DNA of 64,000 nt from Candidatus Fermentibacteraceae bacterium (GCA_016744855.1 JADGDO010000002.1:1-64000); one strand, 5' to 3'. Shown: positions 44,365 to 60,524, counted from the stretch's first letter. Made by a program: numbers and translations. Notes: generated from the letters alone by a model not told the origin.

Positions 44365-44601
44365 GTGGACAAGCAAATAGCTCAGTTTGAAAAGGGTGAG
44401 GATGTAGTAAGAGTTGCTTTGACGGAATTCCGTAAAAGACAGTACATAGAAATTCGCACCTACTACATGGATGATGCCGGCGAATGGAAGCCCACACGCA
44501 AAGGTATTACTCTTAATCCTGATTTGATGAAAGAAGTACACCAAGCTCTCGGGAAAGCGCTTGAAGAAATAGATAATGCAGAGGAATCTGAAATAGAATA
44601 G
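44365..44601 (+). CDS. PC4/YdbC-like single-stranded DNA-binding protein
   Basis: A 78-residue protein matching the transcriptional coactivator PC4 fold: VRVALTEFRKRQYIEIRTYY and WKPTRKGITLNPDLMKEV. Bacterial homologues bind single-stranded DNA as dimers and may affect transcription or repair. The start is GTG at 44365, 5 bases after GGGAGG. It has its own promoter and is followed by a strong hairpin, so it is probably a single-gene unit. Confidence 0.85.
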   Translation: MDKQIAQFEKGEDVVRVALTEFRKRQYIEIRTYYMDDAGEWKPTRKGITLNPDLMKEVHQALGKALEEIDNAEESEIE

Positions 44602-44624
44602 CTCAAAGAAGCTCTGCTACCAAC

Positions 44625-44655
44625 TGGCCACGCGTCATCTATGTGACCGTGGCCA
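44625..44655. terminator. Long hairpin between convergent genes, possible terminator
   Basis: TGGCCACG (44625-44632) pairs with CGTGGCCA (44648-44655), extended inward by GTCA/TGAC after a one-base bulge, with a 6-base loop. It lies between the ends of the PC4-like gene and nrdJ. There is no clear T-run, so it may stop transcription only weakly or protect 3' ends. Confidence 0.5.
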
Positions 44656-44701
44656 TTGTAACAACTGCTAAATCATCGCGTTAAGGTAGAAGCTATATCG
44701 T

Positions 44702-47074
44702 TTATCCGCATTCTGAATATCCGCATTCGAGAGCACATGAAACACAGCCGGACTCATATTTTAATGGACCTCCACAGAAAGGACATGCCCCGGCAAGGTT
44801 GTTCACTGAGGCTTCTGAACCTGAGTTCTCCTTCACAATTACGGTCACATCCGGTTCATCATCGAGCATATCTTCGGAGTCAGCACCCTCTCCGCTTTTC
44901 ATATGCCATGAAAGAGCCTTGCCCATGGCATCGGCACAGGAGAGAATTCGAGTACCATTCTGCCAAGCAAGTCGATGACAGCTAATACCCTTCAACTCAC
45001 TAACTATTTCTGATGGGTGAACATGGCTTCGCAAAGCAAGAGACACCATTCTGCTGATTGCTTCACTCTGGCTTGCAGCGCATCCTCCCGCTTTACCCAT
45101 CTGACTGAATATTTCTACAGGGCCATGCTCATCTTCATTGATGGTTACATAAAGATTTCCACAGCCGGTTCGTACTCTTCTTGTAACTCCCCGTGTAAGC
45201 TCCGGCCGGGGACGTGGACCAACAAGAACAGCATCTTCCTTTTCCTCATGTTCTTCAGGTTTTTCCGTGTTCAGATTCAGTACCTGTTTGTCTCGACTAC
45301 CATCTCTGTATACCGTTACTCCTTTGCAGCCCAACTGCCTTGCAAGGCGAAAAACCTGTGCCACATCCTCGCGCGTGGCATCAGATGGGAGGTTAACAGT
45401 TTTTGAAACAGCATTATCGGTGTACTTCTGAAAAGCAGCCTGCATTCTGACATGATAGGAAGGACTGATATCATGCGAAGTGACAAACACTTCACGTACA
45501 TCTTCGGGGACTTCCTCTACATTCTTGCAACTTCCCTTTTGTGCAACTTTAGAAATGAGTTCGGTTGTGTGAAAGTGCCGTTCCATGGCAACCCTTGCAA
45601 ACTCGGGAACAACTTCATGAAGTTCGTCACCCTCGTCTAGAAGATTTTTCCTGGTGTATGCAAGTGCAAAAACAGGTTCTATTCCACTGGAGCAACCTGC
45701 AAGAATGCTTATTGATCCAGTAGGAGCAATGGTTGTAACTGTAGCATTCCTCATTGCGGGAAGGTTTCTTGTATCAAACAAACTGCCCTTGAAGTTGGGG
45801 AATGCACCTCTCTCACGTGCCAGATCAGAACTTGCCTGTCTCCCCTTGTCAGCAATAAAACTCATAACATCCTCAGCAAGAACAAGTGCTTTCTCACTGT
45901 TGTACGGGATAGATAATCGGAAGAGCAGGTCGGCAAATCCCATGAGTCCAAGACCAATTTTCCTGTTACCTCTTACCATTTCAGCAATTTCAGGAAGTGG
46001 ATACTTATTGACCTCAATTACATCATCCAGGAATCTGACCGCATTTCGTACAGTTCTTTCAAGACGATTCCAGGCTACCTCGGGCAGGCCGTTGGCTCCC
46101 CGGCGAATCATAAGAGAGAGATTTATAGAACCAAGGTTGCATGCCTCAAATGGCAGTAGTGGTTGTTCTCCGCATGGATTTGTTGCTTCGATTTCACCTA
46201 TATGGGGAGTAGGATTTGCTTCATTCATCTTATCAATGAATATCAAACCGGGTTCTCCGCTGGCCCACGCACAATCTACAATTTTTGAAAAGATAGCTTT
46301 TGCGCTGAGTCTTTCAACAGTTTCACCGGAGCGTGGGTTAACCAGAGAGAATTCCTCACCCCTGTCTACTGCGTTCATAAATGAATCAGTTGCTCCAATG
46401 GAAAGATTGAAATTATTAAGAAGTCCCATGTCTTGTTTAACTGTTATGAACTGCTCAATATCGGGATGGTCAACACGTAGAACAGCCATATTGGCTCCAC
46501 GTCTGACTCCCCCCTGTTTTACAGTTTCCGTAGCGTGATCGAATACGGTCATGAATGAAATGGGTCCACTGGAAATGCCCTTGGTAGAATGAACATAGTC
46601 ATTGGCCGGGCGTATTTTTGAGAAAGAAAAACCGGTTCCTCCACCACTCTTGTGAATAAGAGCAGTATTCTTAACCGCAGTGAAAATGCTGTCCATGCTG
46701 TCTTCTACAGGAAGCACAAAACAAGCAGACAGCTGCCCCAATTCTTTTCCCGCATTCATTAGAGTCGGAGAGTTGGGTAAAAATTCCTTCCGAGCCATCA
46801 TGTTATAGAATACAGTTGCCCACTGGCCAGTATCCCCATCCCAGTCAAGTTCAGCATTAGCCACACAGGAAGCAACCCTCCACAACATCTCAGAAGGTGT
46901 TTCAAGTATATCACCATCACTGCTTCTGGTCAGATAACGCTTTTTTAGAACCATTTCCGCATTTGGAGTAAATGATGGAGTAACAAGATTTTCTACAAGA
47001 GGCTGCTCCCGTTCCTCTTTTTTCTCTTCTGTATTAAAAAATTCTTCAAACAGACCTGTTTTTTTTACTGACAC
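44702..47074 (-). CDS. nrdJ: Adenosylcobalamin-dependent ribonucleotide reductase (class II)
   Basis: Makes deoxyribonucleotides without oxygen dependence, using vitamin B12. About 790 residues. Marks: PNSPTLMNAGKELGQLSACF, the loop CGEQPLLPFEACNLGSINLS, RKIGLGLMGFADLLF, TIAPTGSISILAGCSSGIEP, and a C-terminal zinc ribbon (CPFCGGPLKYESGCVSC). I choose GTG 47074, about 8 bases after a G-rich ribosome binding site; ATG 47167 would add 31 residues unlike the family and take in DNA that looks regulatory. I see no cobalamin riboswitch upstream. Confidence 0.92.
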   Translation of the reverse strand: MSVKKTGLFEEFFNTEEKKEEREQPLVENLVTPSFTPNAEMVLKKRYLTRSSDGDILETPSEMLWRVASCVANAELDWDGDTGQWATVFYNMMARKEFLPNSPTLMNAGKELGQLSACFVLPVEDSMDSIFTAVKNTALIHKSGGGTGFSFSKIRPANDYVHSTKGISSGPISFMTVFDHATETVKQGGVRRGANMAVLRVDHPDIEQFITVKQDMGLLNNFNLSIGATDSFMNAVDRGEEFSLVNPRSGETVERLSAKAIFSKIVDCAWASGEPGLIFIDKMNEANPTPHIGEIEATNPCGEQPLLPFEACNLGSINLSLMIRRGANGLPEVAWNRLERTVRNAVRFLDDVIEVNKYPLPEIAEMVRGNRKIGLGLMGFADLLFRLSIPYNSEKALVLAEDVMSFIADKGRQASSDLARERGAFPNFKGSLFDTRNLPAMRNATVTTIAPTGSISILAGCSSGIEPVFALAYTRKNLLDEGDELHEVVPEFARVAMERHFHTTELISKVAQKGSCKNVEEVPEDVREVFVTSHDISPSYHVRMQAAFQKYTDNAVSKTVNLPSDATREDVAQVFRLARQLGCKGVTVYRDGSRDKQVLNLNTEKPEEHEEKEDAVLVGPRPRPELTRGVTRRVRTGCGNLYVTINEDEHGPVEIFSQMGKAGGCAASQSEAISRMVSLALRSHVHPSEIVSELKGISCHRLAWQNGTRILSCADAMGKALSWHMKSGEGADSEDMLDDEPDVTVIVKENSGSEASVNNLAGACPFCGGPLKYESGCVSCALECGYSECG

Positions 47075-47224
47075 AAAATCCCCCCTCAATAGTGTATTTC
47101 GGGTAAAATTATCAATATTTAGTGCTAGAGGCAAGTCCTCAATACCACAGGTTGTGGATATGCCCATTCTACAGACACATAGCTTTTAGGGAAAATCAAT
47201 CGATTCCCCCTGTGTCCTTCTTCA

Positions 47225-47244
47225 TGCCCTTGCCGTAAGGGGCA
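47225..47244. promoter_or_regulatory. Hairpin in the nrdJ/sigma-factor divergent intergenic region
   Basis: TGCCCTT and AAGGGGCA form a stem with one bulged base and a GCCGT loop. A second imperfect inverted repeat lies at 47189-47208 (GGGAA...TTCCC). Either could be an operator or leader structure; the role is not clear. Confidence 0.3.
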
Positions 47245-47276
47245 CCTTTTGCTAATGTTCCACATATGGAGGATTA

Positions 47277-47840
47277 ATGAATACAAAGTCTGAAAATCGT
47301 CTTGAGTTCGAAACTGAGATAATGAGCAACCTCGACAGCATGTACCGGTATGCTTACCATCTTTCCCGAAACAGGGAGGATGCCAGTGATCTGGTCCAGG
47401 AAACATGCGCGAGATCTTTAAAAGCTGCAGATAAGTTCAAACGGGGAACTAATGCCCGTGCATGGTTGTTTGCAATAATGAGAAACACATTTTTCAATCA
47501 GTATAGAGCAAAGAGTAAAGGTGAGATTCCAAGCGACTGGACAGATGAGGTCGAGTCGGGTGACCAGAGATTTACAGGTAGTATATGGCCGCAACCATTT
47601 GAGGTTTTTCTTCGTGATATGATGCGTGAAGATATTGACAAAGCGATGGATAACCTGAGTAATGATTTTCGAACGGTTGTTGCACTTTGCGATGTTGAGG
47701 GGTTTTCGTATGCAGAAGCAGCAAAATTGCTGGATATTCCAGTGGGAACTGTGCGATCCAGACTGCACAGAGCCAGAGCATCACTACAGAAGATGCTTTC
47801 TCACTGGTTCAATGAAGGGTTAGGGGTAGATGAATCCTGA
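47277..47840 (+). CDS. ECF-type sigma factor (RpoE-like), first gene of an eleven-gene operon
   Basis: A 187-residue sigma factor. Region 2 is EFETEIMSNLDSMYRYAYHL then DASDLVQETCARSLKAADKF; region 4 is GFSYAEAAKLLDIPVGTVRS followed by RLHRARASLQ. The N-terminus and size match the RpoE group. The ATG follows GGAGG by 5 bases. The downstream anti-sigma gene overlaps by 11 bases, giving the usual sigma/anti-sigma pair. Autoregulation is likely by analogy, but I could not pick out a specific ECF promoter. Confidence 0.92.
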   Translation: MNTKSENRLEFETEIMSNLDSMYRYAYHLSRNREDASDLVQETCARSLKAADKFKRGTNARAWLFAIMRNTFFNQYRAKSKGEIPSDWTDEVESGDQRFTGSIWPQPFEVFLRDMMREDIDKAMDNLSNDFRTVVALCDVEGFSYAEAAKLLDIPVGTVRSRLHRARASLQKMLSHWFNEGLGVDES

Positions 47841-48057
47841 ATGTCTTTTTGTTTTGGATCATTACAATGATTACATTTCCGGAGAGCTGACACCGGAGAA
47901 AGCAAATCGTGTGGAAGCACACATCAAGATCTGTCCAAACTGTGAAGTTTTTCTTGGTAAGGCTTTCAAAATACACGGTAGAACACTTGGGCTTCTTCGT
48001 GTTCCAGCTCCTGAAACTCTCAGAACCTCCATATCAAGTCTGTTCGACAAGGTTTGA
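47830..48057 (+). CDS. Zinc-finger anti-sigma factor (zf-HC2 type)
   Basis: A 75-residue protein with the anti-sigma zinc site HIKICPNC (HxxxCxxC) inside a helical domain (about 12-45). It has no membrane segment, so it would be a soluble anti-sigma factor, possibly redox-sensitive through its CxxC as in ZAS proteins such as RsrA (inference). It overlaps the sigma gene by 11 bases and the next gene by 4. Confidence 0.85.
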   Translation: MNPECLFVLDHYNDYISGELTPEKANRVEAHIKICPNCEVFLGKAFKIHGRTLGLLRVPAPETLRTSISSLFDKV

Positions 48058-48386
48058 GACTAAGATCTGGAATTTTTGTAACAGCTGGAGCTCTGATGAT
48101 GCTCGCACCTGCTCTTCTGTTCCGGTCACCGGCTAACACAATCAAATCGGGAAACGAGTTATCGACTCTTTCCTGGCTGCTCGCAGAAAACAAGGGAGAG
48201 GGCAGCTGGAAGCTGTATCCTTTCACTATTACTATTGAAATAGGAGAATTCGTAACATTCGCCAGTATCGAAAACTGCGGAACAACCACTCCCCCAGATT
48301 CAAGACTGCCTGAACAGATTCCATTCCCACTTGATTACACACAATCAGACCAATCGGTGTCCATTATTTTCAGTGAGGTCCCCTAA
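48054..48386 (+). CDS. Unknown small exported or membrane-anchored protein
   Basis: A 110-residue protein starting at TTG 48054, overlapping the anti-sigma stop (TTGA). The N-terminus has two basic residues and a hydrophobic stretch (GIFVTAGALMMLAPALLF), a signal peptide or anchor; the rest is beta-rich. No known family. Its position right after the anti-sigma factor suggests an envelope component of the sigma control, but this is inference. The unusual start and lack of a strong ribosome binding site imply coupled translation. Confidence 0.55.
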   Translation: MRLRSGIFVTAGALMMLAPALLFRSPANTIKSGNELSTLSWLLAENKGEGSWKLYPFTITIEIGEFVTFASIENCGTTTPPDSRLPEQIPFPLDYTQSDQSVSIIFSEVP

Positions 48387-48388
48387 AA

Positions 48389-48880
48389 ATGCTCAATAAA
48401 TTCAATCTTGTTTTACTTCTTTTGTTAGCAATCCTATCCGGTTGTCAGGAACAAGTTGATACCGTACTCCCCCCTGTTGAGATAGCTCCCCTTCTTTCCA
48501 TTCCAGGAACAATTCTTCTACCTGACACAACCGGTTTTGTAGAGATGGCAGAAGAGGAACATGATGCCGTTCTTCTCTACTGCTGGTTACCCTTCGGTGA
48601 ATACCCGGAAAGTGAAAATGATCTCATTTTTTTAACCACATTGCATGAAAGAGGAATAACGGCTGTTCCAGTTCAATTTGATGCTATTGTGCGCAATGCA
48701 TCTCAGACTCAGCTGAACAATCTCGGAATATCAATCAGCGTAGCACTGGGAGACGATGCTCTAAAAAACTTTCTCGTCGAAGACAATCTTCCCGCAGCTG
48801 CCCTCGCAATGGCTGACGGTACTGTTGTCAGAGCTTATGGATTCGGTTGTGTTGAAAGGGTACTGCGAGGCAACCAGTGA
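48389..48880 (+). CDS. Lipoprotein with possible thioredoxin-like fold
   Basis: A 163-residue protein whose signal peptide ends at a lipobox (LSGC, then QEQVD). The mature part has the alternation AVLLYCWLPFGEYPESENDL, LHERGITAVPVQFDA, and NLPAAALAMADGTVVRAYGF, which resembles thioredoxin-fold proteins without a CxxC. That resemblance is weak. It begins 2 bases after the previous gene and overlaps lpxH by 4 bases. Confidence 0.6.
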   Translation: MLNKFNLVLLLLLAILSGCQEQVDTVLPPVEIAPLLSIPGTILLPDTTGFVEMAEEEHDAVLLYCWLPFGEYPESENDLIFLTTLHERGITAVPVQFDAIVRNASQTQLNNLGISISVALGDDALKNFLVEDNLPAAALAMADGTVVRAYGFGCVERVLRGNQ

Positions 48881-49599
48881 ACCATTATTTCATTAGTGAC
48901 GTTCATCTTTACCCTATTGGGAAATTTCATCCGGGACGAGAACCGTTATGCAGATTTCTCCAAGAGCTTGCTGACAAGGAGCCGGGTAAATTCTGGATAC
49001 TGGGTGATCTTTTCGATTACTGGTATGAGTATAAGACGGTTATTCCTGCTGGATATTCACACATTCTTTCTCTTATTAAAGCACTCTCATCTAGGGGGTG
49101 GCAGGTCTTCTTTCTACCCGGAAATCATGACTGGTGGTGTGGAGAGAAACTGATGGCTGAGACAGGGATGAAAATTATTTATGATGATGTTCATACCGAA
49201 GTCATCGATGGTAGAAAAACTGTCATGTCTCACGGAGATGGATTGGGAAACGGAGATACCGGTTACAAAATGATGAGACCTGTTTTGCGATCATGGCCTG
49301 CAAAAATTCTTTTTTCAGCTCTTCATCCTACTGTAGCAACTGCTATGGCAAATTTGTTTTCCAGAACCAGCAAGAGAATACTGCGTAAGCAGGTGGATTT
49401 TATCCCTGATTACCTTACCAGTTGGGTACTGAGCCAAGCTGAATTAGATGATGTCGAGCTGGTTATTACCGGCCACACTCACTGCCCTGCAGTTTTGTAT
49501 CATGAAAGGGTAATTCATGTGTCACTTGGCGACTGGATTTCTCACTTCACATACTTGAGGGTAGGCGGAGGGGAGATAAATCTGCATGAATATAAATAA
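48877..49599 (+). CDS. lpxH: UDP-2,3-diacylglucosamine pyrophosphatase-like metallophosphatase
   Basis: LpxH cleaves UDP-2,3-diacylglucosamine to lipid X in lipid A synthesis. The 240-residue protein has the calcineurin-like metal motifs in order: SDVHL, GDLFDYW, GNHDWW, SHGDGLG and GHTHCP. The FDYW after GD and the HP-containing central region fit LpxH. It starts at GTG 48877, overlapping the lipoprotein stop as GTGA, and overlaps the next glycosyltransferase by 14 bases. Confidence 0.88.
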   Translation: MNHYFISDVHLYPIGKFHPGREPLCRFLQELADKEPGKFWILGDLFDYWYEYKTVIPAGYSHILSLIKALSSRGWQVFFLPGNHDWWCGEKLMAETGMKIIYDDVHTEVIDGRKTVMSHGDGLGNGDTGYKMMRPVLRSWPAKILFSALHPTVATAMANLFSRTSKRILRKQVDFIPDYLTSWVLSQAELDDVELVITGHTHCPAVLYHERVIHVSLGDWISHFTYLRVGGGEINLHEYK

Positions 49600-50518
49600 T
49601 GACGTGTTAATTACTGTTGTGATTCCTGCTTTTAATGAAGCTGAAAGTCTTCCTGAGCTCCTCAGGGAGATTAATGAGTCACTTGGGCAGAACAACTGGA
49701 ATGCAGTGGCTATTGACGATGGAAGCTGCGACAATACCTGGAACACCATAACAGCTCTTGCAAATCAATACCCTTTGAAAGGTTTGCGCTTCGGTTCAAA
49801 CCGTGGGAAAGCAGCGGCTTTAGCTGCAGGGTTTGATCATGCGAACGGGCAATTCATTGCTACCCTTGATGCAGATCTTCAGGATGATCCGGCAGAGCTT
49901 CTTCCAATGATAGAATTAATGAACAAAGACGGGTTGGATCTTGTAAGCGGGTGGAAAAAAGTACGGAACGATCCTGCCGGTAAACGGTTGCCATCGAAAG
50001 TCTTTAACAGAGTTGTAGGGCTGACTACCGGTATTCATCTGCATGATTTCAACTGTGGATTGAAGGTATACCGCAGCGCTGCTGCTAAAACCCTTGAACT
50101 CTATGGTGAAATGCACCGCTACACACCTGTTCTTGCCTTTAGAAACGGGTTCAAAGTTGGAGAAAAGCCTGTAAACCACCGATCAAGAAAACACGGGCAC
50201 AGCAAATACGGACTCGCCCGTTTTTTTAGAGGCTACACCGACCTGATTACAGTTCTCTTTCTAGGTCGCTATTCATACAGACCATTGCATTTCTTTGGTG
50301 GAATCGGCACTCTGCTTTCGCTGACCGGTTTTGCGATAAATGTCTATCTATCCATTCTCTGGATGAGTGGTGAATCTATAGGCAGAAGACCACTTCTTTT
50401 AATGGGTGTTTTTCTAATGCTTGCAGGCTTTCAGTTCATCTCGATGGGTCTACTGGGAGAAATGATCCTCAGGTTCAATCCTCGAAAACCCTACACAATA
50501 ACATCCCAAACAAAATGA
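49586..50518 (+). CDS. Family 2 glycosyltransferase of the polyprenyl-phosphate type
   Basis: A 310-residue enzyme. The catalytic GT-A domain has VVIPAFNEAESLPELL, AIDDGS, the DxD region TLDADLQDDP and the acceptor segment DFNCGLKVYRS. Two C-terminal membrane segments follow (about 233-260 and 272-300). This matches DPM1/ArnC/GtrB enzymes, which load a sugar onto a polyprenyl phosphate carrier at the inner membrane. The sugar is not known. Overlaps its neighbours by 14 and 4 bases. Confidence 0.9.
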   Translation: MNINNDVLITVVIPAFNEAESLPELLREINESLGQNNWNAVAIDDGSCDNTWNTITALANQYPLKGLRFGSNRGKAAALAAGFDHANGQFIATLDADLQDDPAELLPMIELMNKDGLDLVSGWKKVRNDPAGKRLPSKVFNRVVGLTTGIHLHDFNCGLKVYRSAAAKTLELYGEMHRYTPVLAFRNGFKVGEKPVNHRSRKHGHSKYGLARFFRGYTDLITVLFLGRYSYRPLHFFGGIGTLLSLTGFAINVYLSILWMSGESIGRRPLLLMGVFLMLAGFQFISMGLLGEMILRFNPRKPYTITSQTK

Positions 50519-51576
50519 AAATAGCTCTGATAAGTCCTCTTCCTCCCTTCAGAGGGGGAATTGCGCAGTTTGGCAAGATGCTCGTTTCCGCGTTGGAAAA
50601 ACAGAATTGCCTGGTTGAAGGTATCAACTATTCCCACCTTTATCCCAGTCTCATCTTTCCCGGTAAAACTCAATTTGAGAGTGGTTTCAATCGCTCAAAT
50701 GGGCTTATCCATGCATTCAACCCCTTTTCCTGGCACAAAGCAAAAAAAGCAATAGAAAACCGGAAACCTGATGTAATTATTTCCCAATGGTGGCATCCCT
50801 TCTTTGCACCATGCCTTACAGCAATAAACCCGGGTGGGATCAAGTCTGTTGCAATCTGCCACAACATCAAACCTCATGAGTCATTTCCCCTGGCAGATGC
50901 TTTCTCAAAACGATTCTTCAGCAAGCAGGACCTTCTAGCTGTCCATTCAGAACAGGCAGCAGAAGAAGCGGAACTCACAGGGAAGAAAACTGTGCAGCTG
51001 TTTCATCCAGTATACGATCAGTACTCAGCCACAGGGCTTTATAGAGAAAAAGCTAGAGCAAAACTCGGGTTGCAGTCCCACCATAAGGCACTCTTGTTTT
51101 TCGGACTGGTAAGAGACTACAAAGGATTCGACATTCTTATCGAAGCCTGTAACCTTCTCCCGGAGGAGTACAGGATAATTGCAGCGGGTGAGAACTACAC
51201 TGGTAGTGATTTTGAATCCCCGAGACTACTCTGGGAGAATTCCTTCATACCGGACTGTGATGTCGGAACATGGTTTAATGCTGCAGATATAGTTGTTCTA
51301 CCCTACAGAACCGCATCTCAGAGCGGAATTGCTCAAATTGCCCTTGCATTTAATAAACCAATGGTTGTTACAAATCGTGGTGGTCTTGCAGAAACAGTAA
51401 TCCCAGGGAAAACTGGAGCAGTTGCAGAAAATGCAACTCCGGAAGACATTGCAAAAGCGATATTGGAGTGTTCCAGTCTATTGGACAACAAACTTACTGA
51501 TGAAAGAATCGAAGCGAAAGCTTCTGAATTTTCATGGACAGCATATGCAGACAAACTTCTTGGAGCTATACAATGA
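50515..51576 (+). CDS. Family 4-like glycosyltransferase (GT-B)
   Basis: A 353-residue enzyme of the GT-B fold. The N-terminal ISPLPPFRGGIAQFGKML matches the acceptor-binding loop of family 4 glycosyltransferases. The C-terminal half holds LFFGLVRDYKGFDILIEA and the nucleotide-sugar region VVLPYRTASQSGIAQIALAF with GGLAETVIPGKTG. No membrane segment. ATGA overlaps at both ends couple it to the GT2 gene and the epimerase. Confidence 0.9.
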   Translation: MKIALISPLPPFRGGIAQFGKMLVSALEKQNCLVEGINYSHLYPSLIFPGKTQFESGFNRSNGLIHAFNPFSWHKAKKAIENRKPDVIISQWWHPFFAPCLTAINPGGIKSVAICHNIKPHESFPLADAFSKRFFSKQDLLAVHSEQAAEEAELTGKKTVQLFHPVYDQYSATGLYREKARAKLGLQSHHKALLFFGLVRDYKGFDILIEACNLLPEEYRIIAAGENYTGSDFESPRLLWENSFIPDCDVGTWFNAADIVVLPYRTASQSGIAQIALAFNKPMVVTNRGGLAETVIPGKTGAVAENATPEDIAKAILECSSLLDNKLTDERIEAKASEFSWTAYADKLLGAIQ

Positions 51577-52451
51577 AAGTATTTCTGACCGGTGCAACCG
51601 GTTTTATCGGCAGCTACATAACCAAGGCGATAGAAGAAGCAGGTCACACAGTTACCAAACACAGTTTTTCAAGCCATGGTCATTTTTCAAAGCTTCCGCC
51701 AGACATGGATATTGCAGTTAATGCTGCAGGGAGACTCGGTGGACAGGGTGCCACAACTGAAGAGTTACAAGAAGCAAATGTCCATCTCCCTCTTGTTTTA
51801 TGCAAAGAGTGCCGTGAAAAGGATATACCTTTGATTCACCTTAGCACGCCCGGAGTAACGGGTCTTGCGGCAAATGCAAAAGAAAGTGACCCGTATGACC
51901 CTATGGGTGAATATGAGGCAACGAAAGTGGAAGCAGAACAGAAGTTGCTTAAAAATTGTCCAGACATCACTATTCTAAGACCTGACTTTGTTTTTGGCCC
52001 CGGAGACATGCACAAATTTCCTCTTTTCAAACAGATTCACAAGGGGTGGATGCCTCTTGTTGGGTCGGGGTCTGCAAAAACAAGACCAACCGATGTCAGG
52101 GATGTTGCCGACGCAGTCCTTAAGAGCTTTCCAGGTCAGCCTCTGTCGAAAGGAATCTATAACATCGGAGGACCACAAGTTCTCTCAATTAAAGAGCTTG
52201 CATTAGTCATTTCGGTTGCAATGGGGAAATCAGTACAATTCTTTCCCATACCTCGTTTCATCTTCAAACTTGCTCTTATGTTTGGGCCATTCTGCCCCAA
52301 AGCACTTTCTAAAAGTAGATACAATCTTTTTGGAATGGATAGATTTTCTAATACAGACAAGTCATTTAAAAAGGGTTACAAACCAACACGTCCTTTCTCT
52401 CTGACAGCAATTGAAACCGTGATATGGTACAAAGATCAGGGGCTGATTTGA
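51573..52451 (+). CDS. NAD-dependent epimerase/dehydratase-like protein (extended SDR)
   Basis: A 292-residue Rossmann protein with LTGATGFIGSYI at residues 5-16, HLSTPGV with GEYEATKVEAE giving the Y-x-x-x-K pair, and RPDFVFGPGDMHKFPLF. It may modify a nucleotide sugar or a lipid-linked sugar. The start is ATG 51573, overlapping the preceding stop, with GGAG upstream; the longer in-frame ATG at 51534 lies inside the previous gene. Confidence 0.86.
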   Translation: MKVFLTGATGFIGSYITKAIEEAGHTVTKHSFSSHGHFSKLPPDMDIAVNAAGRLGGQGATTEELQEANVHLPLVLCKECREKDIPLIHLSTPGVTGLAANAKESDPYDPMGEYEATKVEAEQKLLKNCPDITILRPDFVFGPGDMHKFPLFKQIHKGWMPLVGSGSAKTRPTDVRDVADAVLKSFPGQPLSKGIYNIGGPQVLSIKELALVISVAMGKSVQFFPIPRFIFKLALMFGPFCPKALSKSRYNLFGMDRFSNTDKSFKKGYKPTRPFSLTAIETVIWYKDQGLI

Positions 52452-53362
52452 ACGTAAAAAAACTCGCTTTCTTATCGAAAGTATGCCTGTTTGCTCTTGC
52501 AGGAGTGGCTCTGTTCTTTGTGTGGAAAAACGGCAGTAGTTGGCTGGAAGAAGTGAGTAAGTACACTTGGCATCTGAATGCAGGTCAACTAATACTCTCT
52601 GCAATTCTACTGATTCTTTCTCTTAGCCTGACTCCCTCTGGCTGGGTGATAATATGCAGATCTATGGGTTCTAAAGTTCCAGCTAAGGAATTGTTCGCTG
52701 CATGGTACAGCAGCCAGTTAGGCAGATATATCCCGGGTAAAATCTGGCTCTTTGCCGGTAGAGCAGGATTCCTAAAAGCCCGAGGAATGAAACTGGGAAA
52801 GGCAGGAGCAACAACGGCATACGAGCTTTTCTTTACAGTAGCCTCAGTGGGTCTGATAGTAATAGTGCTTGCAATTGTCAGCCCTGACGTTTTCCTGCAT
52901 TCTGGTGGAAGAGCTGCCGCTTTCGCAGCTGCCGCTGCAATACTGCTTCTTCCGCTTCTTCATCCTGTTCAGAGTTATCTATGCAGGAAAAAGGGCATTG
53001 ATCACGCAAAACTTCCATCACCCAAAACAGCAGCAGTTATTGTTGCTATATATTCCATCCTCTGGCTACTTCGAGGGTTATCGCTTTTTCTTCTTCTCAA
53101 GGGTGCAGGTCTGACTGAGTTGAGTTTTGCGAGTTCCCTTGCCGCTGCCCCTGTTTCGTGGCTGGCTGGATATATTGTGTTCTTTGTTCCGGGCGGTATA
53201 GGTGTACGGGAAGCCACTGCCGCCGCAATAGCAGCTCCGGGGCTGATTGCTCCTGCCGCTATTGTAATTGCAGGTCAGAGAATTTTCATGGCAGTTGTAG
53301 AAGTATTGCTTGCTCTACTGAATACCGGAAAAATAAAATTAGATCATAAGCAGGAGGAATAG
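52448..53362 (+). CDS. Flippase-like membrane protein (LPG synthase TM family), paralogue
   Basis: A 304-residue membrane protein with about seven or eight hydrophobic segments. It shares LGRYIPGKIWLFAGR and FVPGGIGVRE with the protein at 4249-5238 and with the N-terminal half of 55646-57754, so it belongs to the same flippase-like family. The likely start is TTG 52448, overlapping the epimerase stop as TTGA, after an AGGGGC site; ATG 52424 is a less likely alternative. The next gene starts directly after its stop. Confidence 0.8.
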   Translation: MNVKKLAFLSKVCLFALAGVALFFVWKNGSSWLEEVSKYTWHLNAGQLILSAILLILSLSLTPSGWVIICRSMGSKVPAKELFAAWYSSQLGRYIPGKIWLFAGRAGFLKARGMKLGKAGATTAYELFFTVASVGLIVIVLAIVSPDVFLHSGGRAAAFAAAAAILLLPLLHPVQSYLCRKKGIDHAKLPSPKTAAVIVAIYSILWLLRGLSLFLLLKGAGLTELSFASSLAAAPVSWLAGYIVFFVPGGIGVREATAAAIAAPGLIAPAAIVIAGQRIFMAVVEVLLALLNTGKIKLDHKQEE

Positions 53363-55645
53363 ATGTTAAGGTTCATGTTCAGGAATGAAAAGTCGGTTCT
53401 GGGAATAGCATTGATTCTTCTTGCAGTACTCACATATTGGACAATATTCTCTTCTGCACGATTACCCGGTGGCGACATGAGCGACACTGTAAGTCAGGGG
53501 TATCCGTTTTTCTCTTATACTGAAAGCCGACTTGATCAGGGGGAACTACCGCTCTGGAATCCTTATGTCTTCTGCGGTATTCCTTTCTATGAGTCATTCA
53601 GTTCTCCTGTTTTCTATCCGCTGCGCGGTCTTCCGATGATCATTTTCGGCTCTGAGGTAGCAATTCGATTCCTTTTCCCAATGCATCTGCTTCTTGCCGG
53701 TCTTTTTGCCTGGCTCTTTTTGAAATCCATCTCGGTTTCCAGGTGGGGTTCTCTGATTGGAGCCTTTGCATATGCTTCGGGAGCGTGGGCAAATACACTG
53801 TTTTACGCTGGCCATGGAAGTAAAATTATCTGCTGGGCATGGTTACCCCTGCTCCTATGGGCAGTCGTTAGATGGTCGGATACAAGAGACTCAAGATACA
53901 TTGCAATCGGTGCGATTGCCGTTGGTATGCAGGGGCTGGCCAGTCATCCGCAGATGATTCTGTATTCTGCAGGTTGCGCTTTGATACTGGCTTTATTCGT
54001 CTCAAAAAAATCAACTGTCAAATCGGTTTCGCTAAATATTGGTGGGCTTACTGCAATACTACTTCTCGGTGGAGCTCTTGCAGCTATTCAGCTCTATCCA
54101 GGCTACAAGTTCAGCGAACACACCTCCAGGGGTGAAAATCTCTCTCTTGAAGCTGCATCAAGCTACTCGCTAGCCCCCGAAGAAACACTAACAATGTTCC
54201 TCCCTGGCATGTTCGGTCTCAGGCACGGTTTCAATGACAGCATGGTCAGCGGTGTTCCAGTTTACTTTGGAAGACTCGGTCTAAGGCTTTCGAGCGAATT
54301 TATGGGAGTTGCCTTTTTTACACTTGCGCTGATAGGTCTTTCTTACGGTACAAACCGGAAGGCCAGATTCGGGCTTCTAACTCTCGCAGTAACAGGAGCT
54401 GTAGTCTCCTGGGGTGGATACACACCGGTATTCTCTCTATTGTACAACGTAATACCGGTATTCAGGAAGCTCAGAGCACCCCACATGGCAGCTTTTGTAA
54501 CAACATCGTCTCTTGCTTTGGCATCCGGATTGGGATTTGATGCTCTTTTTGAGTCAGGATTGAACAAAGCAAAGCTAAAAAAACCTATGATTGCTCTTGC
54601 TGCAGTTTCAGGACTTTTTCTCATATTGATGGCTGCTGCAGATCCGATATCCCGCGCATTGCAGTCTTCATGGTGGACAGCTAACGGCATCTCAGATCCC
54701 TCCCCTTTCGGTGCAATCATTGCAAGGCGTTCAGCTCTTCTCTCTAAAGACTTCCTGAGAGTATTCTCAGTAACAGGGCTGATGGCTGCGATGGTATTTA
54801 TTGTCCGAAAAGGCAAGGGTTCAACAGCTATTTTTGCTCTGACACTGCTTCTTGTCTCATGTGTGGAACTTGTTCCATTCAATAGAAATTTCCAGGTTTT
54901 TCTACCCTCGACAAGCATAGAATCTATGTATCCGGATTCACCTCTATTAAGAGAGATGGCCGGAGAAGGTAGGGTTTTCCCGGGAGGGAACGAACTGGTA
55001 CCCCTTGGAATCAGGTCCGTATACGGCTACCACGCCGCCAAACCATCTGGGACAGACCAACTGATGGCACTGGTAAGAACTTCCTCGCCATGGGTCCTTA
55101 GACAGACCGCAATGACAGCTTATGCTTCAAGTGAAGGTGCAGCAGGATGGGATGACTTCAGACCTGTTCTCGCAGAAGGAGTTCCGGGATACCCGGTGGA
55201 TCCCATGCCAAGGGCATTTGTGCCCGGGGCAGTTGTTGCTGCTTCAGTTGATGAAGCATTTGACGCCATTGCAGCAGGGATTGATCCTCAGGTAAGATCA
55301 CACATTCAAGGGATATCAACAGTTTGTGAAGGAGTTACAGGTAGCGCAGTAATTACTGAAGACCTCCCGGAAAAAGTAACTATCCGTTGTGAATCTTCAG
55401 GAACAGGATACTTGATCCTTGCAGACTCATGGTACCCGGAATGGGAAGTCAGTGTGGACGGGGAACCAGCTTCACTTCTTCGTGCCAACGGATGGATGCG
55501 CGCTGTTCAGCTTTCTGCTGGTGAACATCTGGTGGAATTCTCTTACAGCAGCAGAAATGTTGTAACGGGTGGTATAATAAGTGGTGCAGCTGCACTGCTT
55601 ATACTGATATCACTTCTGTTCTCTATCTTCAGGAAAAAAGGATAA
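53363..55645 (+). CDS. YfhO-family membrane protein
   Basis: A 760-residue protein with about ten or more membrane segments and a C-terminal soluble domain. The early segment PFFSYTESRLDQGELPLWNP and the later GDM and YAPG-type loops match YfhO proteins, a GT-C-like family that in Gram-positives adds sugars to lipoteichoic acid precursors. The C-terminal part (YPEWEVSVDGEPASLLRANG) is the typical YfhO end. AGGAGG precedes the ATG by 5 bases. It abuts both neighbours. Confidence 0.88.
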   Translation: MLRFMFRNEKSVLGIALILLAVLTYWTIFSSARLPGGDMSDTVSQGYPFFSYTESRLDQGELPLWNPYVFCGIPFYESFSSPVFYPLRGLPMIIFGSEVAIRFLFPMHLLLAGLFAWLFLKSISVSRWGSLIGAFAYASGAWANTLFYAGHGSKIICWAWLPLLLWAVVRWSDTRDSRYIAIGAIAVGMQGLASHPQMILYSAGCALILALFVSKKSTVKSVSLNIGGLTAILLLGGALAAIQLYPGYKFSEHTSRGENLSLEAASSYSLAPEETLTMFLPGMFGLRHGFNDSMVSGVPVYFGRLGLRLSSEFMGVAFFTLALIGLSYGTNRKARFGLLTLAVTGAVVSWGGYTPVFSLLYNVIPVFRKLRAPHMAAFVTTSSLALASGLGFDALFESGLNKAKLKKPMIALAAVSGLFLILMAAADPISRALQSSWWTANGISDPSPFGAIIARRSALLSKDFLRVFSVTGLMAAMVFIVRKGKGSTAIFALTLLLVSCVELVPFNRNFQVFLPSTSIESMYPDSPLLREMAGEGRVFPGGNELVPLGIRSVYGYHAAKPSGTDQLMALVRTSSPWVLRQTAMTAYASSEGAAGWDDFRPVLAEGVPGYPVDPMPRAFVPGAVVAASVDEAFDAIAAGIDPQVRSHIQGISTVCEGVTGSAVITEDLPEKVTIRCESSGTGYLILADSWYPEWEVSVDGEPASLLRANGWMRAVQLSAGEHLVEFSYSSRNVVTGGIISGAAALLILISLLFSIFRKKG

Positions 55646-57754
55646 ATGCATAATAAAAATTCCAAGTTTAACAAAATTCAGACGTGGGGCGGTCTTGTTC
55701 TGCTTCTAGGTGCGGGGTACTATTTCTATTCGCAGCTTCTTCCAGACTGGCAACCAAAACTGGAAGAGTTCTGGAGTACTTCCGGACAAAACGCAAGCAG
55801 ACCACTCATGCTGCTATCTTTTGCTCTGGTTTGGCTGGGTTACTATTTCGCACCCCTTCCATGGCAAAAGATTCTCGACGCCCTGAAGATACCAAGGATT
55901 GACCGCGGTGAGTTGCGTCGGAACTGGTACATAACTCAGATGGGCAGTTATATGCCGGGAAAACTCTGGATGGTACTCGGAAGGCTAACTTTCCTGAAGG
56001 CAAATGGTACAGGAACTTTCAAGGGCGTTACTGCGCTGGTTCTTGAAAATATTTACATGCTGGTTGCACTTGGAATTCTGGCCCTCATTGCTCTCCCCTT
56101 TCTTGGATCTGATCTTCCACGGGCAGTAACAATAGCTCTCTGGATTTCTGCTGGACTTGCCATTCTCATGCTCTTCGCTCCCGGTCTGCAAAAGAAATTC
56201 GCTCGCAGGCTTGCAAAAAACTATGATGTCGATATAGAAGAACTTCCCCATATAAGTCATACCGATCAGTTCAAATTCATCGGTGCCCACATACTTTCCT
56301 GGTCATTTAGAAGCCTTGCCCTTTATGTCTGGTTCAGGGGTTTTGGTGTACCGTCCTCATCTCCTCCGTACGCAATGGTAGCCGTATGCCTTCTCGCTGC
56401 TCCAGCTTCGTGGCTTATTGCTCTTGTAATGGTTTTCATACCGGGCGGCATTGGTGTCAGAGAGTCAATCAGAGGCTTGTTTCTTGCACCATTCGTTACC
56501 GGTGGCATGGCAGTTGCAACAACAATCGCCCTTGGACAGAGAGCTGTTGTCATTATTGTGGAGATACTTTTCGCCTTCCAGGCAGTTGTCTATCAGTTCC
56601 TCCGCAAGCATTTCCCTGTGAAGATGAGCCATTTGAGTCAGTTTTCTCATCTCGCTTGGAGTGCAATGAAGGGCTGGCTTTGCAAGCACGGGCTATCAAC
56701 ACCCCCTAAACCTATCAATGTAACCTTCTCTGTTACCAGAAGATGCCAGTCCAGATGTAAAACCTGTTTCATCTGGAAGAAAAACAACCATGTTGATGAC
56801 TCCTCGGATCTTGATCTTCCAACAATAGAGAGACTGTTCAGATCCATCGGGTGGACTTACTTTTTCAATGTTTCCGGAGGTGAACCTTTTCTCCGTAAAG
56901 ACCTCTCGGAAATTGTTAGACTCGCCCTCCGACACCTCAAGCCGGCAGTAGTTCACATACCGACAAATGCAATCATGCCCGAGCGTATTGAAGAGACAAC
57001 AAGGACAATTCTTGAAGTTATAAAATCTGAAGCACCCGGCACGGTTTTGACAATCAAACCATCTTTCGATGGTATCGGAGAACAGCACAACGAAATACGC
57101 GGTATTCCCGGTAATTTTGAAAAACTACTGGATACTCTTGGAAGATTGAAAGCCCTTCAAAACGACTACGAGTATCTTCATGTTGGAGTGGGAACGGTTG
57201 TCTCCAGATTTAACCAGGACAGTCTTGATTCAATTATCGAGTATGCAGGAACTCTCGGAGTAAATACATACATCAATGAAGTTGCTGAAGAGAGAGAGGA
57301 ATTCTACAATCTGGGAAGCGGTATCACCCCTGACGAGGACAGTTACAGAAAGATAATGCTCACCTTTAAGGAAAATGTCAGAGCAGGAATGAAAGACATG
57401 AAGCTGCTTTCAAGAATAACAACTGCTATGCGAATTGTTTACTATGATCTTGCTTCAGACATTTTGCGTGAGAACAAACAGGTGATCCCCTGCTATGCAG
57501 GAATACTAAATGTCCACGTAAACTCTGATGGTGGAATTTGGCCATGTGCTGTGCTCGCCTATAATGGGCAAATGGGTACTATCCAAGATAACTCTGATTT
57601 CCTGGAAATATGGAATTCAAAGGAAGCAACAAAGATCAGGAAGAGTATCAGCAACGGCGATTGTGCTTGTCCTCTGGCTAACCAGGCTTACTCCAATATC
57701 ATAATGGACCCGCGCAGCCTTCTTAAAACTATCTGGATTGCTATAAAGGGATAA
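55646..57754 (+). CDS. Fusion: flippase-like membrane domain plus radical SAM/SPASM enzyme
   Basis: A 702-residue fusion. Residues about 15-325 are a complete flippase-like domain: MGSYMPGKLWMVLGR (99-113) and FIPGGIGVRESI (264-275) correspond to the motifs of the two stand-alone paralogues in this window. Residues about 355-690 are a radical SAM enzyme with the cluster site RRCQSRCKTC (Cys367, 371, 374), SGGEPFLRKD and a C-terminal SPASM-like set of cysteines (IPCYAG, IWPCAVL, GDCACPLANQ). A radical SAM domain fused to such a membrane domain is unusual. I infer processing of a membrane lipid or lipid-linked sugar next to its transport. Last gene of the operon. Confidence 0.85.
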   Translation: MHNKNSKFNKIQTWGGLVLLLGAGYYFYSQLLPDWQPKLEEFWSTSGQNASRPLMLLSFALVWLGYYFAPLPWQKILDALKIPRIDRGELRRNWYITQMGSYMPGKLWMVLGRLTFLKANGTGTFKGVTALVLENIYMLVALGILALIALPFLGSDLPRAVTIALWISAGLAILMLFAPGLQKKFARRLAKNYDVDIEELPHISHTDQFKFIGAHILSWSFRSLALYVWFRGFGVPSSSPPYAMVAVCLLAAPASWLIALVMVFIPGGIGVRESIRGLFLAPFVTGGMAVATTIALGQRAVVIIVEILFAFQAVVYQFLRKHFPVKMSHLSQFSHLAWSAMKGWLCKHGLSTPPKPINVTFSVTRRCQSRCKTCFIWKKNNHVDDSSDLDLPTIERLFRSIGWTYFFNVSGGEPFLRKDLSEIVRLALRHLKPAVVHIPTNAIMPERIEETTRTILEVIKSEAPGTVLTIKPSFDGIGEQHNEIRGIPGNFEKLLDTLGRLKALQNDYEYLHVGVGTVVSRFNQDSLDSIIEYAGTLGVNTYINEVAEEREEFYNLGSGITPDEDSYRKIMLTFKENVRAGMKDMKLLSRITTAMRIVYYDLASDILRENKQVIPCYAGILNVHVNSDGGIWPCAVLAYNGQMGTIQDNSDFLEIWNSKEATKIRKSISNGDCACPLANQAYSNIIMDPRSLLKTIWIAIKG

Positions 57755-57781
57755 CGTAAGAATAGATATTGATAACCAAAA

Positions 57782-57811
57782 AAAAGGCGGAGCTATTAAG
57801 CCCCGCCTTTT
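57782..57811. terminator. Strong bidirectional terminator
   Basis: GGCGG/CCGCC, continued by GCT/AGC around an ATTA loop, is flanked by A-runs on one side and TTTTC on the other. It can stop the plus operon ending at 57754 and the minus gene ending at 57828. Confidence 0.9.
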
Positions 57812-57827
57812 CTTATAAGAATCTAAT

Positions 57828-58670
57828 CTAGAAAGATGTCTTGATTCCAGCCCATGAATCGGATTCAAGAGACTGACCCGGATCGAAATCGATATCAAGC
57901 TTGTAAAGGTAATCGTTCTGTGGGTATACCCAGAGGTATTCACCATCATAGTCGATTCCACCGTTTACTGACATAGCAGCGTTCTCAAGGAAGGTGCAGG
58001 ACCATACTGGTGTTGCTCCTGGAGTACCATCGGCAGCGAGCTCATGAATGAACATGTTGTCAGCAGCTTCAGTACCGCATGCTACGAAAAGGTAGTCACC
58101 GTATACAGCGAGACCGTAAACAGACTCGTAAGTCATTTCGCCGGCCCAAGCAATCGATGTTTCTGTTCCTGTGTAAGGACCCCAGGCAAGGAAGGAATCA
58201 TTAGGGCTACCAACGTAAATATTATCATGACCAGCACCGATACCGAAAATATTCTGGTAAGCGGAAGGGCCGTCTATATTACGCAAAAAGGTACCGTCCT
58301 CAGCAAAAACGCCAAACCAGCTACCCGTGTAATCACTCATGAACCACTGAGCACCTGAACTGTAGTCACAGAATGCCTGGTCATCTGGATCGACGCCGCC
58401 GCTGATTGCCCAGGAGTTACCTGTAGCTGATCCACCGGCCATGTCGTACTCGTAATCAAGCATGTCAGTGTAGTTAAGCAACCAGATACTGTTGGCTGTA
58501 CCGTCTTTGATTGCCATACCGTAAGTCGCTGAAAGATCACCGGCGATAGTGTCCATAACATCATAGGTACCATTGCTGGACCAGGGGTTGGGCATGCCAG
58601 AGCCTCCAGTTTTTACACTAGCCGAAGCTGTGATGGCAACAATCAGAAGCACACACATGAAAAGTCGCAT
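57828..58670 (-). CDS. Secreted beta-propeller-like protein of unknown function
   Basis: A 280-residue protein with a signal peptide (MRLFMCVLLIVAITASASV). The rest is rich in G, D, W and Y with repeated short motifs such as NSIWLLNY, GYDGEYLWVYP and YGDYLFVACG, which suggests a beta-propeller. Family unknown. The ATG at 58670 follows AAGGGG. A near-consensus promoter and a 5' hairpin suggest abundant expression. Confidence 0.75.
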   Translation of the reverse strand: MRLFMCVLLIVAITASASVKTGGSGMPNPWSSNGTYDVMDTIAGDLSATYGMAIKDGTANSIWLLNYTDMLDYEYDMAGGSATGNSWAISGGVDPDDQAFCDYSSGAQWFMSDYTGSWFGVFAEDGTFLRNIDGPSAYQNIFGIGAGHDNIYVGSPNDSFLAWGPYTGTETSIAWAGEMTYESVYGLAVYGDYLFVACGTEAADNMFIHELAADGTPGATPVWSCTFLENAAMSVNGGIDYDGEYLWVYPQNDYLYKLDIDFDPGQSLESDSWAGIKTSF

Positions 58671-58690
58671 TGTTTTCCCCTTATTTGTTT

Positions 58691-58710
58691 TGTGCTCCCT
58701 AATGAGCACA
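58691..58710 (-). promoter_or_regulatory. Hairpin at the 5' end of the secreted-protein transcript
   Basis: A perfect 7-base stem, TGTGCTC/GAGCACA with a 6-base loop, begins about 2 bases from the predicted transcription start. Such 5' stem-loops can stabilise mRNA. Confidence 0.6.
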
Positions 58711-58718
58711 GCTTATTA

Positions 58719-58747
58719 ACGATACACGTACTGCAAACGATTGTCAA
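58719..58747 (-). promoter_or_regulatory. Promoter of the secreted protein gene
   Basis: On the minus strand, a perfect TTGACA (58747-58742) and TATCGT (58724-58719, 4 of 6 matches) are 17 bases apart. The rest of the 366-base gap between 58671 and 59036 shows no gene; it holds only the hairpin at 58691 and the terminator at 58979. Confidence 0.7.
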
Positions 58748-58978
58748 TTAACGAAAAATTCTACAACTGCTGAATTAAGCATTAATTGTTACTGCTTAAG
58801 TAAATAATCCATCTTCTACGCTTCGTAATACTTTTGAGAGCTAAGACTTGCAGCTTTCCTTATAAATGCTCAGTAACTTTATCTTTCATACTTTTGTAGT
58901 TTTAGCAACATGCCTTACTTCAGAGAAGAAGCTTCCAAAACCCTGCAGCACTTCAAAAACCATGACTCTAATCGAAAA

Positions 58979-59003
58979 CCGGTCCTCCCAGTAAGAGGAC
59001 CGG
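58979..59003 (-). terminator. Rho-independent terminator of the acidic lipoprotein gene
   Basis: A perfect 9-base stem CCGGTCCTC/GAGGACCGG with a 7-base loop, followed on the minus strand by TTTTCGATT, about 34 bases past the stop at 59037. Confidence 0.85.
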
Positions 59004-59036
59004 CTAATCGAAGTCGCTAGCTATTCAGTTTCCAGT

Positions 59037-60473
59037 TTATACAGCATCAAGGGAACTTGATGTACCATAACTATTTGCGAAAATCACACCGAGGAGAGAA
59101 ACTAACGACTTCAGAACATCGGGACCGGCAACTGCTGTCGCTGTGAACAACTGCTCGTCTGAGGTGACGGAGAAGTCGGCACGATCTTCAAAGATAGTTG
59201 TGATGATCTCTCTCACATCATCTTCTGCATTGATACCTTCAAGAAGAGCTTCTGGGTCAACAGATCCCCCCATGAAACCATCAGCACCAATTCCACCGTC
59301 AAAGTAATCGCCGGCGGAGATCCCTTCAATTATTTCTTCAGGATCTGTATTGAAAGTTACATAAAGCACATCATTGTCAATAAATATCCAGATGTCCTCA
59401 CCACTTTCTCTTATCCGGTAAGCTGTGAAATCATCGTATTCCTCAATCGAAGACTCCGGTATCATTGAAATCATGCTTAATGAAGACATCAGTGTTTCCG
59501 AATCAAGGAGCGAGATAGAGAACACAGCGGCCCCACCATCGACTTCACTGTTACTGTCAAGTTCTATCTCACTAACAGACAAACAGAAATCCCCCTGGAA
59601 AATCGCAATGAATTCTTCAATTGAAGAAAAACCGATAAACGGAAGACCGCCTTCAATCTCTTCAAAGTAGTCTTCACCTGTTCTTTCTTCAATTTCCTCA
59701 AACTCTTCAACAAGCCAGTTCATGTCCAGATTGTAGCGAATAGCTGCCATAGTGTTTTCTGGGAGCTTTATGTTTTCGCTAACGAGACCCTCTCCGAGAA
59801 CATCCATGTAGAGAGCTACTTGATCATCATCGGTTATTACGCAAATTTTCAGTATACTTTCGTTACTGTTGGTACTGAATGCTCCAAAAACAGGGACCTC
59901 AGCTATCTCATCTGCAAAGAAAAAACTCACACAAGCATCTTCAAGACTAACAGCCTCGTTCATCGAGATAAAATCAGGATCTGAGGAGAGTGGATCCCCA
60001 GTAAGGTCATCTTCAAGATCTTCAAGAAAATCATCATCATCCCATGCAACAACCATTACCGTATAGTCGCCGCTTGTAAAAAACTCACTGTCACCAAAAT
60101 CATTGTCTACTATGAATTCCTCCAGTGCGGCGCTGTCATCACAGGGAAGAAAGAAAGCGACAATTTCATCATCCTCGGTATTCGAGAAAACACCAATTTC
60201 TCCATCACGGAGATTAAGTGTTTCCTTGCACTCTTGCCAGTCAAACAGATCGATATCCAAGTCAGCGTCTTCTATCTGCTCAATTACATCATCCGGTAGG
60301 TTATCTTCGAGTGACACAAGGATTTCCTCGAGATCCATGGTCTCGGGATTTATTGTTATGTAAAAGTCGTAGCCTTCAGGCATCTGACCCAGCAATGCTG
60401 GAGCAGATCCGGAAAAACAGCCGGTTAACGCAAGCAGCAATGCCGCTGTTGAAAGTATCAGAAAGTGTTTCAC
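59037..60473 (-). CDS. Highly acidic lipoprotein of unknown function
   Basis: A 478-residue protein. A signal peptide ends at a lipobox (LTGC, then FSGSAP). The mature protein is very acidic, with runs such as DDDFLEDLEDDLTGD and many D/E-rich segments, and repeated hydrophobic blocks resembling DUF3352-like proteins (YITINPETMDLEE, AAIRYNLDMNWLVEEF). Family not certain. The start is GTG at 60473, four bases after AAGGAGG. It has its own terminator at 58979. Confidence 0.7.
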   Translation of the reverse strand: MKHFLILSTAALLLALTGCFSGSAPALLGQMPEGYDFYITINPETMDLEEILVSLEDNLPDDVIEQIEDADLDIDLFDWQECKETLNLRDGEIGVFSNTEDDEIVAFFLPCDDSAALEEFIVDNDFGDSEFFTSGDYTVMVVAWDDDDFLEDLEDDLTGDPLSSDPDFISMNEAVSLEDACVSFFFADEIAEVPVFGAFSTNSNESILKICVITDDDQVALYMDVLGEGLVSENIKLPENTMAAIRYNLDMNWLVEEFEEIEERTGEDYFEEIEGGLPFIGFSSIEEFIAIFQGDFCLSVSEIELDSNSEVDGGAAVFSISLLDSETLMSSLSMISMIPESSIEEYDDFTAYRIRESGEDIWIFIDNDVLYVTFNTDPEEIIEGISAGDYFDGGIGADGFMGGSVDPEALLEGINAEDDVREIITTIFEDRADFSVTSDEQLFTATAVAGPDVLKSLVSLLGVIFANSYGTSSSLDAV

Positions 60474-60524
60474 ATTTCCTCCTTAGTTAGAGTCTAGCTC
60501 AATACAAACATCTTGTGTTCAGTA

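Follow-up and report, generated by a model that had tools for sequence, protein, structure and literature searches.

Multi-component transmembrane glycosylation systems of Gram-positive bacteria such as CsbB/GtcA/YfhO have been reviewed (PMC8035078), and they are among the closest described counterparts of an eleven-gene operon at positions 47277-57754 in a 64,000-nucleotide stretch (the window) from Candidatus Sabulitectum, of the Fermentibacterota. Both have a membrane family 2 glycosyltransferase (GT2) for polyprenyl phosphate, a flippase, and a YfhO transferase of the GT-C type, and alternative sigma factors are involved in Bacillus subtilis. The flippase of the known system is GtrA-like, however, while that of the operon is UPF0104/MprF-like, and the operon serves a Gram-negative envelope and adds a family 4 glycosyltransferase (GT4), a short-chain dehydrogenase/reductase (SDR), LpxH, and a second flippase domain fused to a radical S-adenosylmethionine (SAM) enzyme. 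The aminoarabinose (Arn) system shares an ArnC-like GT2, a GT-C enzyme (ArnT is among the fold matches), an SDR, and a link to lipid A, but lacks the GT4 and the radical SAM enzyme; Pfam domains for the ArnA formyltransferase, ArnB, and ArnD are absent from the eleven genes, to which that search was confined. The PgfS-PgfM1-PgfE-PgfM2 (Pgf) system also combines a GT2, an epimerase-type SDR, and a YfhO-like transferase, but the operon scores far under the Pgf cut-offs and has one YfhO protein, plus flippases and the radical SAM enzyme.

Single components have relatives of their own. The sugar radical SAM enzymes BtrN, DesII, BlsE, and AbmM resemble the operon enzyme in fold, but at 14-19% identity, and the latter is joined to a lipid flippase domain and belongs to a separate, uncurated family. 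MprF has the same flippase fold, but the C-terminus of the fusion is a radical SAM/SPASM region and not an aminoacyl-phosphatidylglycerol synthase. SigR/RsrA likewise pairs an extracytoplasmic function (ECF) sigma factor with a soluble, single-domain CHCC zinc anti-sigma factor of identical ligand spacing, but the sigma factor here heads a glycan operon and is under the SigH_actino cut-off, and redox sensing is only predicted. On the best reading, the locus encodes a pathway of a familiar general type, for a sugar borne on a carrier lipid, in which the UPF0104 flippases, the radical SAM step, and the LpxH linkage are the new parts.

A conserved operon for a probable envelope sugar pathway

It is fairly probable that this operon, a core possession of the phylum, assembles an envelope sugar on a lipid carrier for flipping across the membrane and attachment to the cell surface, with lipid A as the leading acceptor and with a sigma factor pair that is dispensable. 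On the cytoplasmic side, the ArnC-like GT2 would charge undecaprenyl phosphate with a sugar. This sugar would be provided or modified, or a second one attached, by the GT4, the SDR, and the radical SAM/SPASM domain; the MprF-like UPF0104 proteins would flip the product; and the YfhO-type GT-C enzyme would transfer the sugar to an envelope acceptor on the periplasmic side. Because the radical SAM domain is fused to a flippase, the radical step would be placed at the membrane, where the lipid-linked substrate is handed over. The sigma/anti-sigma pair would be a soluble redox- or zinc-type switch that accompanies the operon without being needed for it. In this scheme the identity of the sugar and of the acceptor, the direction of the steps, the role of the radical SAM domain, and the co-transcription of the genes are what we infer, whereas gene content, order, conservation, predicted folds, motifs, and the single LpxH are observed.

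The physical unit is plain. The gaps between the genes, in order, are -11, -4, +2, -4, -14, -4, -4, -28, 0, and 0 nt, so that each neighbouring pair overlaps or lies at most 2 nt apart, as a sequence-only reading of the locus had claimed for eleven plus-strand genes; only the SDR start is corrected, probably to 51573, where ATGA overlaps the GT4 stop, in place of 51534. The domains named in that reading hold in searches with Pfam and NCBIfam models, which give an ECF sigma factor, zf-HC2 anti-sigma factor, LpxH-like enzyme, GT2, GT4, SDR, flippase, YfhO, and flippase-radical SAM fusion, and the strong terminator that it placed at the end is borne out by a stable hairpin (Table 1).

Gene order was compared by tblastn of each operon gene on 40 fetched regions. 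The order is identical in Sabulitectum (g1), g2, g7, and g8, is kept across several genera and families, and thus recurs across the phylum, as the comparison with related genomes proposed in the sequence-only reading was meant to reveal; 19 fetched loci have the sigma gene as the first gene of the operon, so the sigma pair and the glycan genes do occur together in relatives. Within the same order, 39 of 41 further genomes encode the fusion protein or strongly match its parts, and the nearest named relatives of the protein (84-88% identity) are from Candidatus Sabulitectum and Fermentibacteraceae metagenome-assembled genomes (MAGs). The two exceptions, G030 (no match) and G031 (a radical SAM match of only 31% identity), are both about two-thirds complete; the 18 genomes examined from outside the order all lack a match. 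Since the same gene order recurs phylum-wide, the arrangement is beyond chance, which supports the view of the eleven genes as one conserved, transcription-unit-like block.

The enzymes themselves also suggest a lipid-glycan assembly line. The nearest solved structures to the GT2 are those of ArnC (E 5e-44), while its score against NF007986, 162 bits, is under the cut-off of 529. At 19.8 bits, the YfhO-type protein falls short of the Pfam gathering score of 28.5, but its AlphaFold2 (AF2) model (predicted TM-score, pTM, 0.84) has a clear predicted GT-C fold, closest to AftD (Z 23.9) and then to OST, PglB, and ArnT (Z about 17-21); the GT-C transferases matched in this way are mostly carrier-lipid dependent, and an invariant D41 lies shortly past the first transmembrane (TM) segment. 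There is no GtrA-family or Wzx flippase domain among the eleven genes, the flippases being of the LPG_synthase_TM/UPF0104 type with an MprF fold. The earlier proposal of a membrane-linked glycolipid under stress control is therefore sustained for the lipid-linked glycan, through the GT2, the flippases, the GT-C-fold YfhO, and the gene order, and not for the stress control.

Table 1. Features of the operon in the window, with the basis of each assignment.
Feature	Position	Strand	Basis or remark
Promoter-like element TTGCCG-N17-TAATGT, TGC extended -10	47230..47259	+	alignments of relatives; conserved in genus
ECF sigma factor (Sigma70_r2, Sigma70_r4_2)	47277..47840	+	Pfam above cut-off
Soluble zinc anti-sigma factor, 75 residues	47830..48057	+	zf-HC2 above cut-off
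o110, 110 residues, one TM segment and short outer domain, TTG start	48054..48386	+	no Pfam/NCBIfam match; counterparts kept in g5
o163, predicted lipoprotein of 163 residues, invariant lipobox C19	48389..48880	+	alignment of 13
LpxH-like UDP-2,3-diacylglucosamine diphosphatase	48877..49599	+	Pfam/NCBIfam; only copy in genome
GT2, ArnC/GtrB/PgfS-like polyprenyl-phosphate sugar transferase, two C-terminal TM segments	49586..50518	+	ArnC structures
GT4 glycosyltransferase	50515..51576	+	same subfamily lies beside radical SAM relatives outside the phylum
SDR, NAD-dependent epimerase/dehydratase, extended type	51573..52451	+	Epimerase 76.7 bits
UPF0104/LPG_synthase_TM membrane protein, MprF-like flippase	52424..53362	+	50.6 bits, cut-off 33.4
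YfhO-type membrane protein, GT-C fold glycosyltransferase	53363..55645	+	AF2 model, fold comparison
Flippase-radical SAM/SPASM fusion	55646..57754	+	MprF-like domain about 1-330, then radical SAM with SPASM-type domain
Intrinsic terminator hairpin and U tract	about 57782-57811	+	z = -4.25; 0/200 shuffles as stable

Two variants of the locus were seen. In some g2 species (L048, L050, L075) an insertion of several kb between the GT2 and SDR genes carries a different GT4 on the opposite strand, and in L067 (G011) the reductase, GT2, YfhO, and fusion genes are split into several frames, probably by sequencing errors in the MAG. The reductase is a ribonucleotide reductase that includes a TSCPD domain; its gene, at 44702-47167, is the divergent neighbour, which the operon adjoins in every fetched stretch long enough to include it. 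Upstream of this gene, at 47110-47157, two boxes that look palindromic, TATCAATATTTAGTGC and ATACCACAGGTTGTGG, are separated by about 32 bp; they are kept across genera and resemble paired NrdR boxes. An Rfam search of 44500-60500 gave no matches.

Lipid A and other candidate acceptors

Lipid A leads as the acceptor because the only LpxH-like enzyme of the cell is encoded in the same operon. The protein aligns with LpxH (5K8K, E 5e-23) with its metal ligands D, H, D, N, H, H, and H intact, a set that is invariant in 10 sequences. The genome has a cluster of lpxD, an lpxC-fabZ fusion, and lpxA (lpxD and lpxA were recognised by reading the sequences), LpxC and LpxB have family matches, and every Fermentibacterota genome tested lacks LpxI; with LpxA, LpxC, LpxD, and LpxB present and no other LpxH or LpxI, the operon gene fills the gap in the pathway and is the sole candidate for the LpxH step of lipid A. 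Its linkage to the operon is kept in every locus whose stretch reaches that far.

If the flipped sugar is instead placed on secreted proteins, as by PgfS, PgfM, and PgfE of Streptococcus, then LpxH would be a mere passenger. The epimerase-type SDR fits such surface-protein glycosylation, as do NCBIfam matches of the GT2 to PgfS (100 bits) and of YfhO to PgfM2 and PgfM1, and a protein acceptor is conceivable because the folds nearest to YfhO include the protein glycosylators OST (with PglB) and PMT; but every Pgf match is far under its cut-off, the GT2 is closer to ArnC, and LpxH stays linked wherever the locus extends to it, so this alternative is unlikely. Several other observations join these folds in weighing against the lipid A pathway as proposed. 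The LpxH-like protein is under both curated cut-offs (107.0 of 190.35 bits for TIGR01854 and 112.7 of 134 for NF003743) and has a His at the position of LpxH Arg80; many SPASM enzymes have peptide substrates; and LpxC is undetected in G013, a genome that is 98% complete, yet keeps the LpxH-like operon gene. LpxC is also undetected in G014 (88% complete), and the two cases may be either loss of lipid A or an assembly gap.

The sigma factor pair and the putative promoter

The ECF sigma factor has its best NCBIfam match in TIGR02947 (SigR/SigH), at 136.1 bits under a cut-off of 251.55. Its soluble partner has no TM segment, and the residues C5, H31, C35, and C38, invariant in an alignment of 9 relatives, form a CHCC set with HX3CX2C and the spacing of RsrA Cys11, His37, Cys41, and Cys44. 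RsrA senses disulfide stress, and HHCC-type proteins are not disulfide sensors (PMC4960319). The solubility of the protein and its RsrA-like motif therefore point to cytoplasmic redox sensing rather than to membrane stress.

In the stress-control reading, the ECF sigma factor, once freed from its anti-sigma factor, transcribes its own operon, and the glycan is switched on under stress. ECF factors are often autoregulated, and sigmaX is one of the ECF factors. In B. subtilis, both sigmaB and sigmaX govern csbB-yfhO (PMC8035078), so ECF-sigma control of a GT2/YfhO pair would not be new, and the 19 relatives with the sigma gene at the operon head also favour this reading. The genus g5 does not. 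In G016 and G018 (95% and 92% complete) the run from the reductase through the o110-like gene, o163, and the later genes is unbroken and the sigma/anti-sigma pair is absent; elsewhere in these two genomes there is no close sigma ortholog, the best ECF protein being only 31-32% identical and a different one, encoded near lpxC. This genus has lost both sigma genes and kept the operon. It has also kept the promoter-like element, as TTGCGR-N17-TAGTTT; the g2 counterpart is TTGGCA-N18-TAGTTT, an extended -10 is present in g1 and g2, and the spacings were counted by hand on the alignments. The genome has one exact site for the element and one with 3 mismatches, hence no clear second site, and the element has no recognised ECF motif; it is sigma70-like and is retained where the sigma gene is missing. 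Since g5 keeps operon and element without the pair, control of the operon by its own ECF sigma factor is possible but not required, and a housekeeping-type promoter probably drives the unit. A sole LpxH, moreover, should be needed constantly. With the soluble CHCC anti-sigma factor, these findings leave the stress control proposed in the sequence-only reading weak, and it is unlikely.

The two small genes that follow the pair, o110 and o163, match no Pfam or NCBIfam model; by eye, o163 may have a TlpA-like thioredoxin pattern without the active-site Cys pair. That the anti-sigma factor and o110 are one split membrane anti-sigma factor is unlikely, as o110-like genes are retained in g5 without the pair and the two are separate genes in g2. 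A second ECF sigma gene, with a TM-bearing anti-sigma factor that has a zinc motif, follows lpxD-lpxC/fabZ-lpxA (L185:2087-6389; G000 C52), so ECF pairs adjoin lipid A genes twice; an ECF gene near lpxC is also present in G016, G018, G036, and G039.

The radical SAM fusion and its relatives

The fusion scores above the Pfam cut-offs for both Radical_SAM (46.1 bits) and SPASM (33.2 bits), with CX3CX2C at 367-374 and conserved SPASM-type cysteines C616, C634, C673, and C675. Its model (pTM 0.76) splits into a flippase and a SPASM-type radical SAM domain with a partial TIM barrel. Residues 12-324 match MprF (9goe_A; Z 18.7, rmsd 4.7, 288 aligned), and the radical SAM domain is nearest to SkfB (Z 20.8), BlsE (20.5), PqqE (18.7), DesII (17.6), and BtrN (16.0), as well as near AbmM and peptide enzymes. 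DesII, BlsE, BtrN, and AbmM are sugar or nucleotide-sugar enzymes. The fusion reaches none of the curated NCBIfam radical SAM equivalogs (the best, TIGR03961, gives 57.9 of 306), and no scanned member of the family meets a curated radical SAM cut-off. No description of the fusion or of the family was found in the literature searched, which was mostly outside subscription journals.

Relatives that lack the flippase share 43-54% identity and are spread over more than 12 phyla, including archaea (Nanoarchaeia, Woesearchaeota, Methanophagales), and in groups with cultivated members, Lachnospiraceae and Geobacteraceae. Outside the phylum they often lie inside polysaccharide clusters, with SDRs, Wzx, pyruvyltransferase, methyltransferase-like, and AMP-binding proteins as recurrent neighbours. 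Of 46 loci of this sort, 27 have within 10 kb a GT4 with at least 200 bits to the operon GT4 profile, and in several others a GT4 copy is cut off by the edge of the locus; unrelated GT4s that are complete in these loci reach 21-122 bits. In a control set of 18 whole genomes that lack the radical SAM protein, only 2 encode a GT4 of this kind. As a tentative proposal, the family may be an undescribed glycan-maturation enzyme of Bacteria and Archaea, which with a partner GT4 and SDR would oxidise, epimerise, or deoxygenate a lipid-linked or nucleotide sugar by radical chemistry, the MprF-like flippase fusion of the Fermentibacterota coupling modification to flipping. That the fusion instead acts on membrane lipids, modifying a tail or head group much as tetraether synthase does, while the glycosyltransferases make a glycolipid, is improbable: the tetraether synthase GDGT-MAS is the best sequence match among solved structures (E 2e-6) and MprF flippase domains handle phospholipids, but GDGT-MAS has a fold Z of 15.0, below SkfB, BlsE, PqqE, and anSME, and outside the phylum the enzyme lies in polysaccharide clusters.

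In the radical SAM tree the Fermentibacterota sequences form one clade (100/100), with the stand-alone protein of G036 placed near the base without resolution; the stand-alone protein of G013 is nested among fused ones and appears to have lost its flippase domain. The fused flippase domain is also one clade (96/97) in its own tree, in which the position of two paralogs from the genome of the window was disregarded, as the longest, wrong open reading frames had been used for them. The fusion has a split counterpart in a Clostridia locus (L113:2153-4257), where UPF0104 and the radical SAM enzyme are encoded by separate, overlapping genes. Five loci from LCP-89, Calditrichota, and unnamed bacteria (L138, L145, L151, L155, L157) share a conserved block with genes for a GT4, an SDR, a methyltransferase-like protein, a pyruvyltransferase, an AMP-binding protein, an M14 peptidase, Wzx, and the radical SAM enzyme, after which come UDP-sugar epimerase and dehydrogenase genes. 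Long radical SAM or GT2 frames in L132, L133, L139, L150, and L152 are open-frame extensions with unlikely N termini and were not accepted as further fusions.

The locus is an example of an ECF sigma gene that heads an operon for which it is apparently dispensable. An uncultured phylum gains a defined candidate pathway for an envelope glycan tied to lipid A. For the widespread radical SAM family, the genomic partners suggest surface-sugar chemistry, and because relatives occur in Lachnospiraceae and Geobacteraceae, this chemistry could be tested in laboratory strains.

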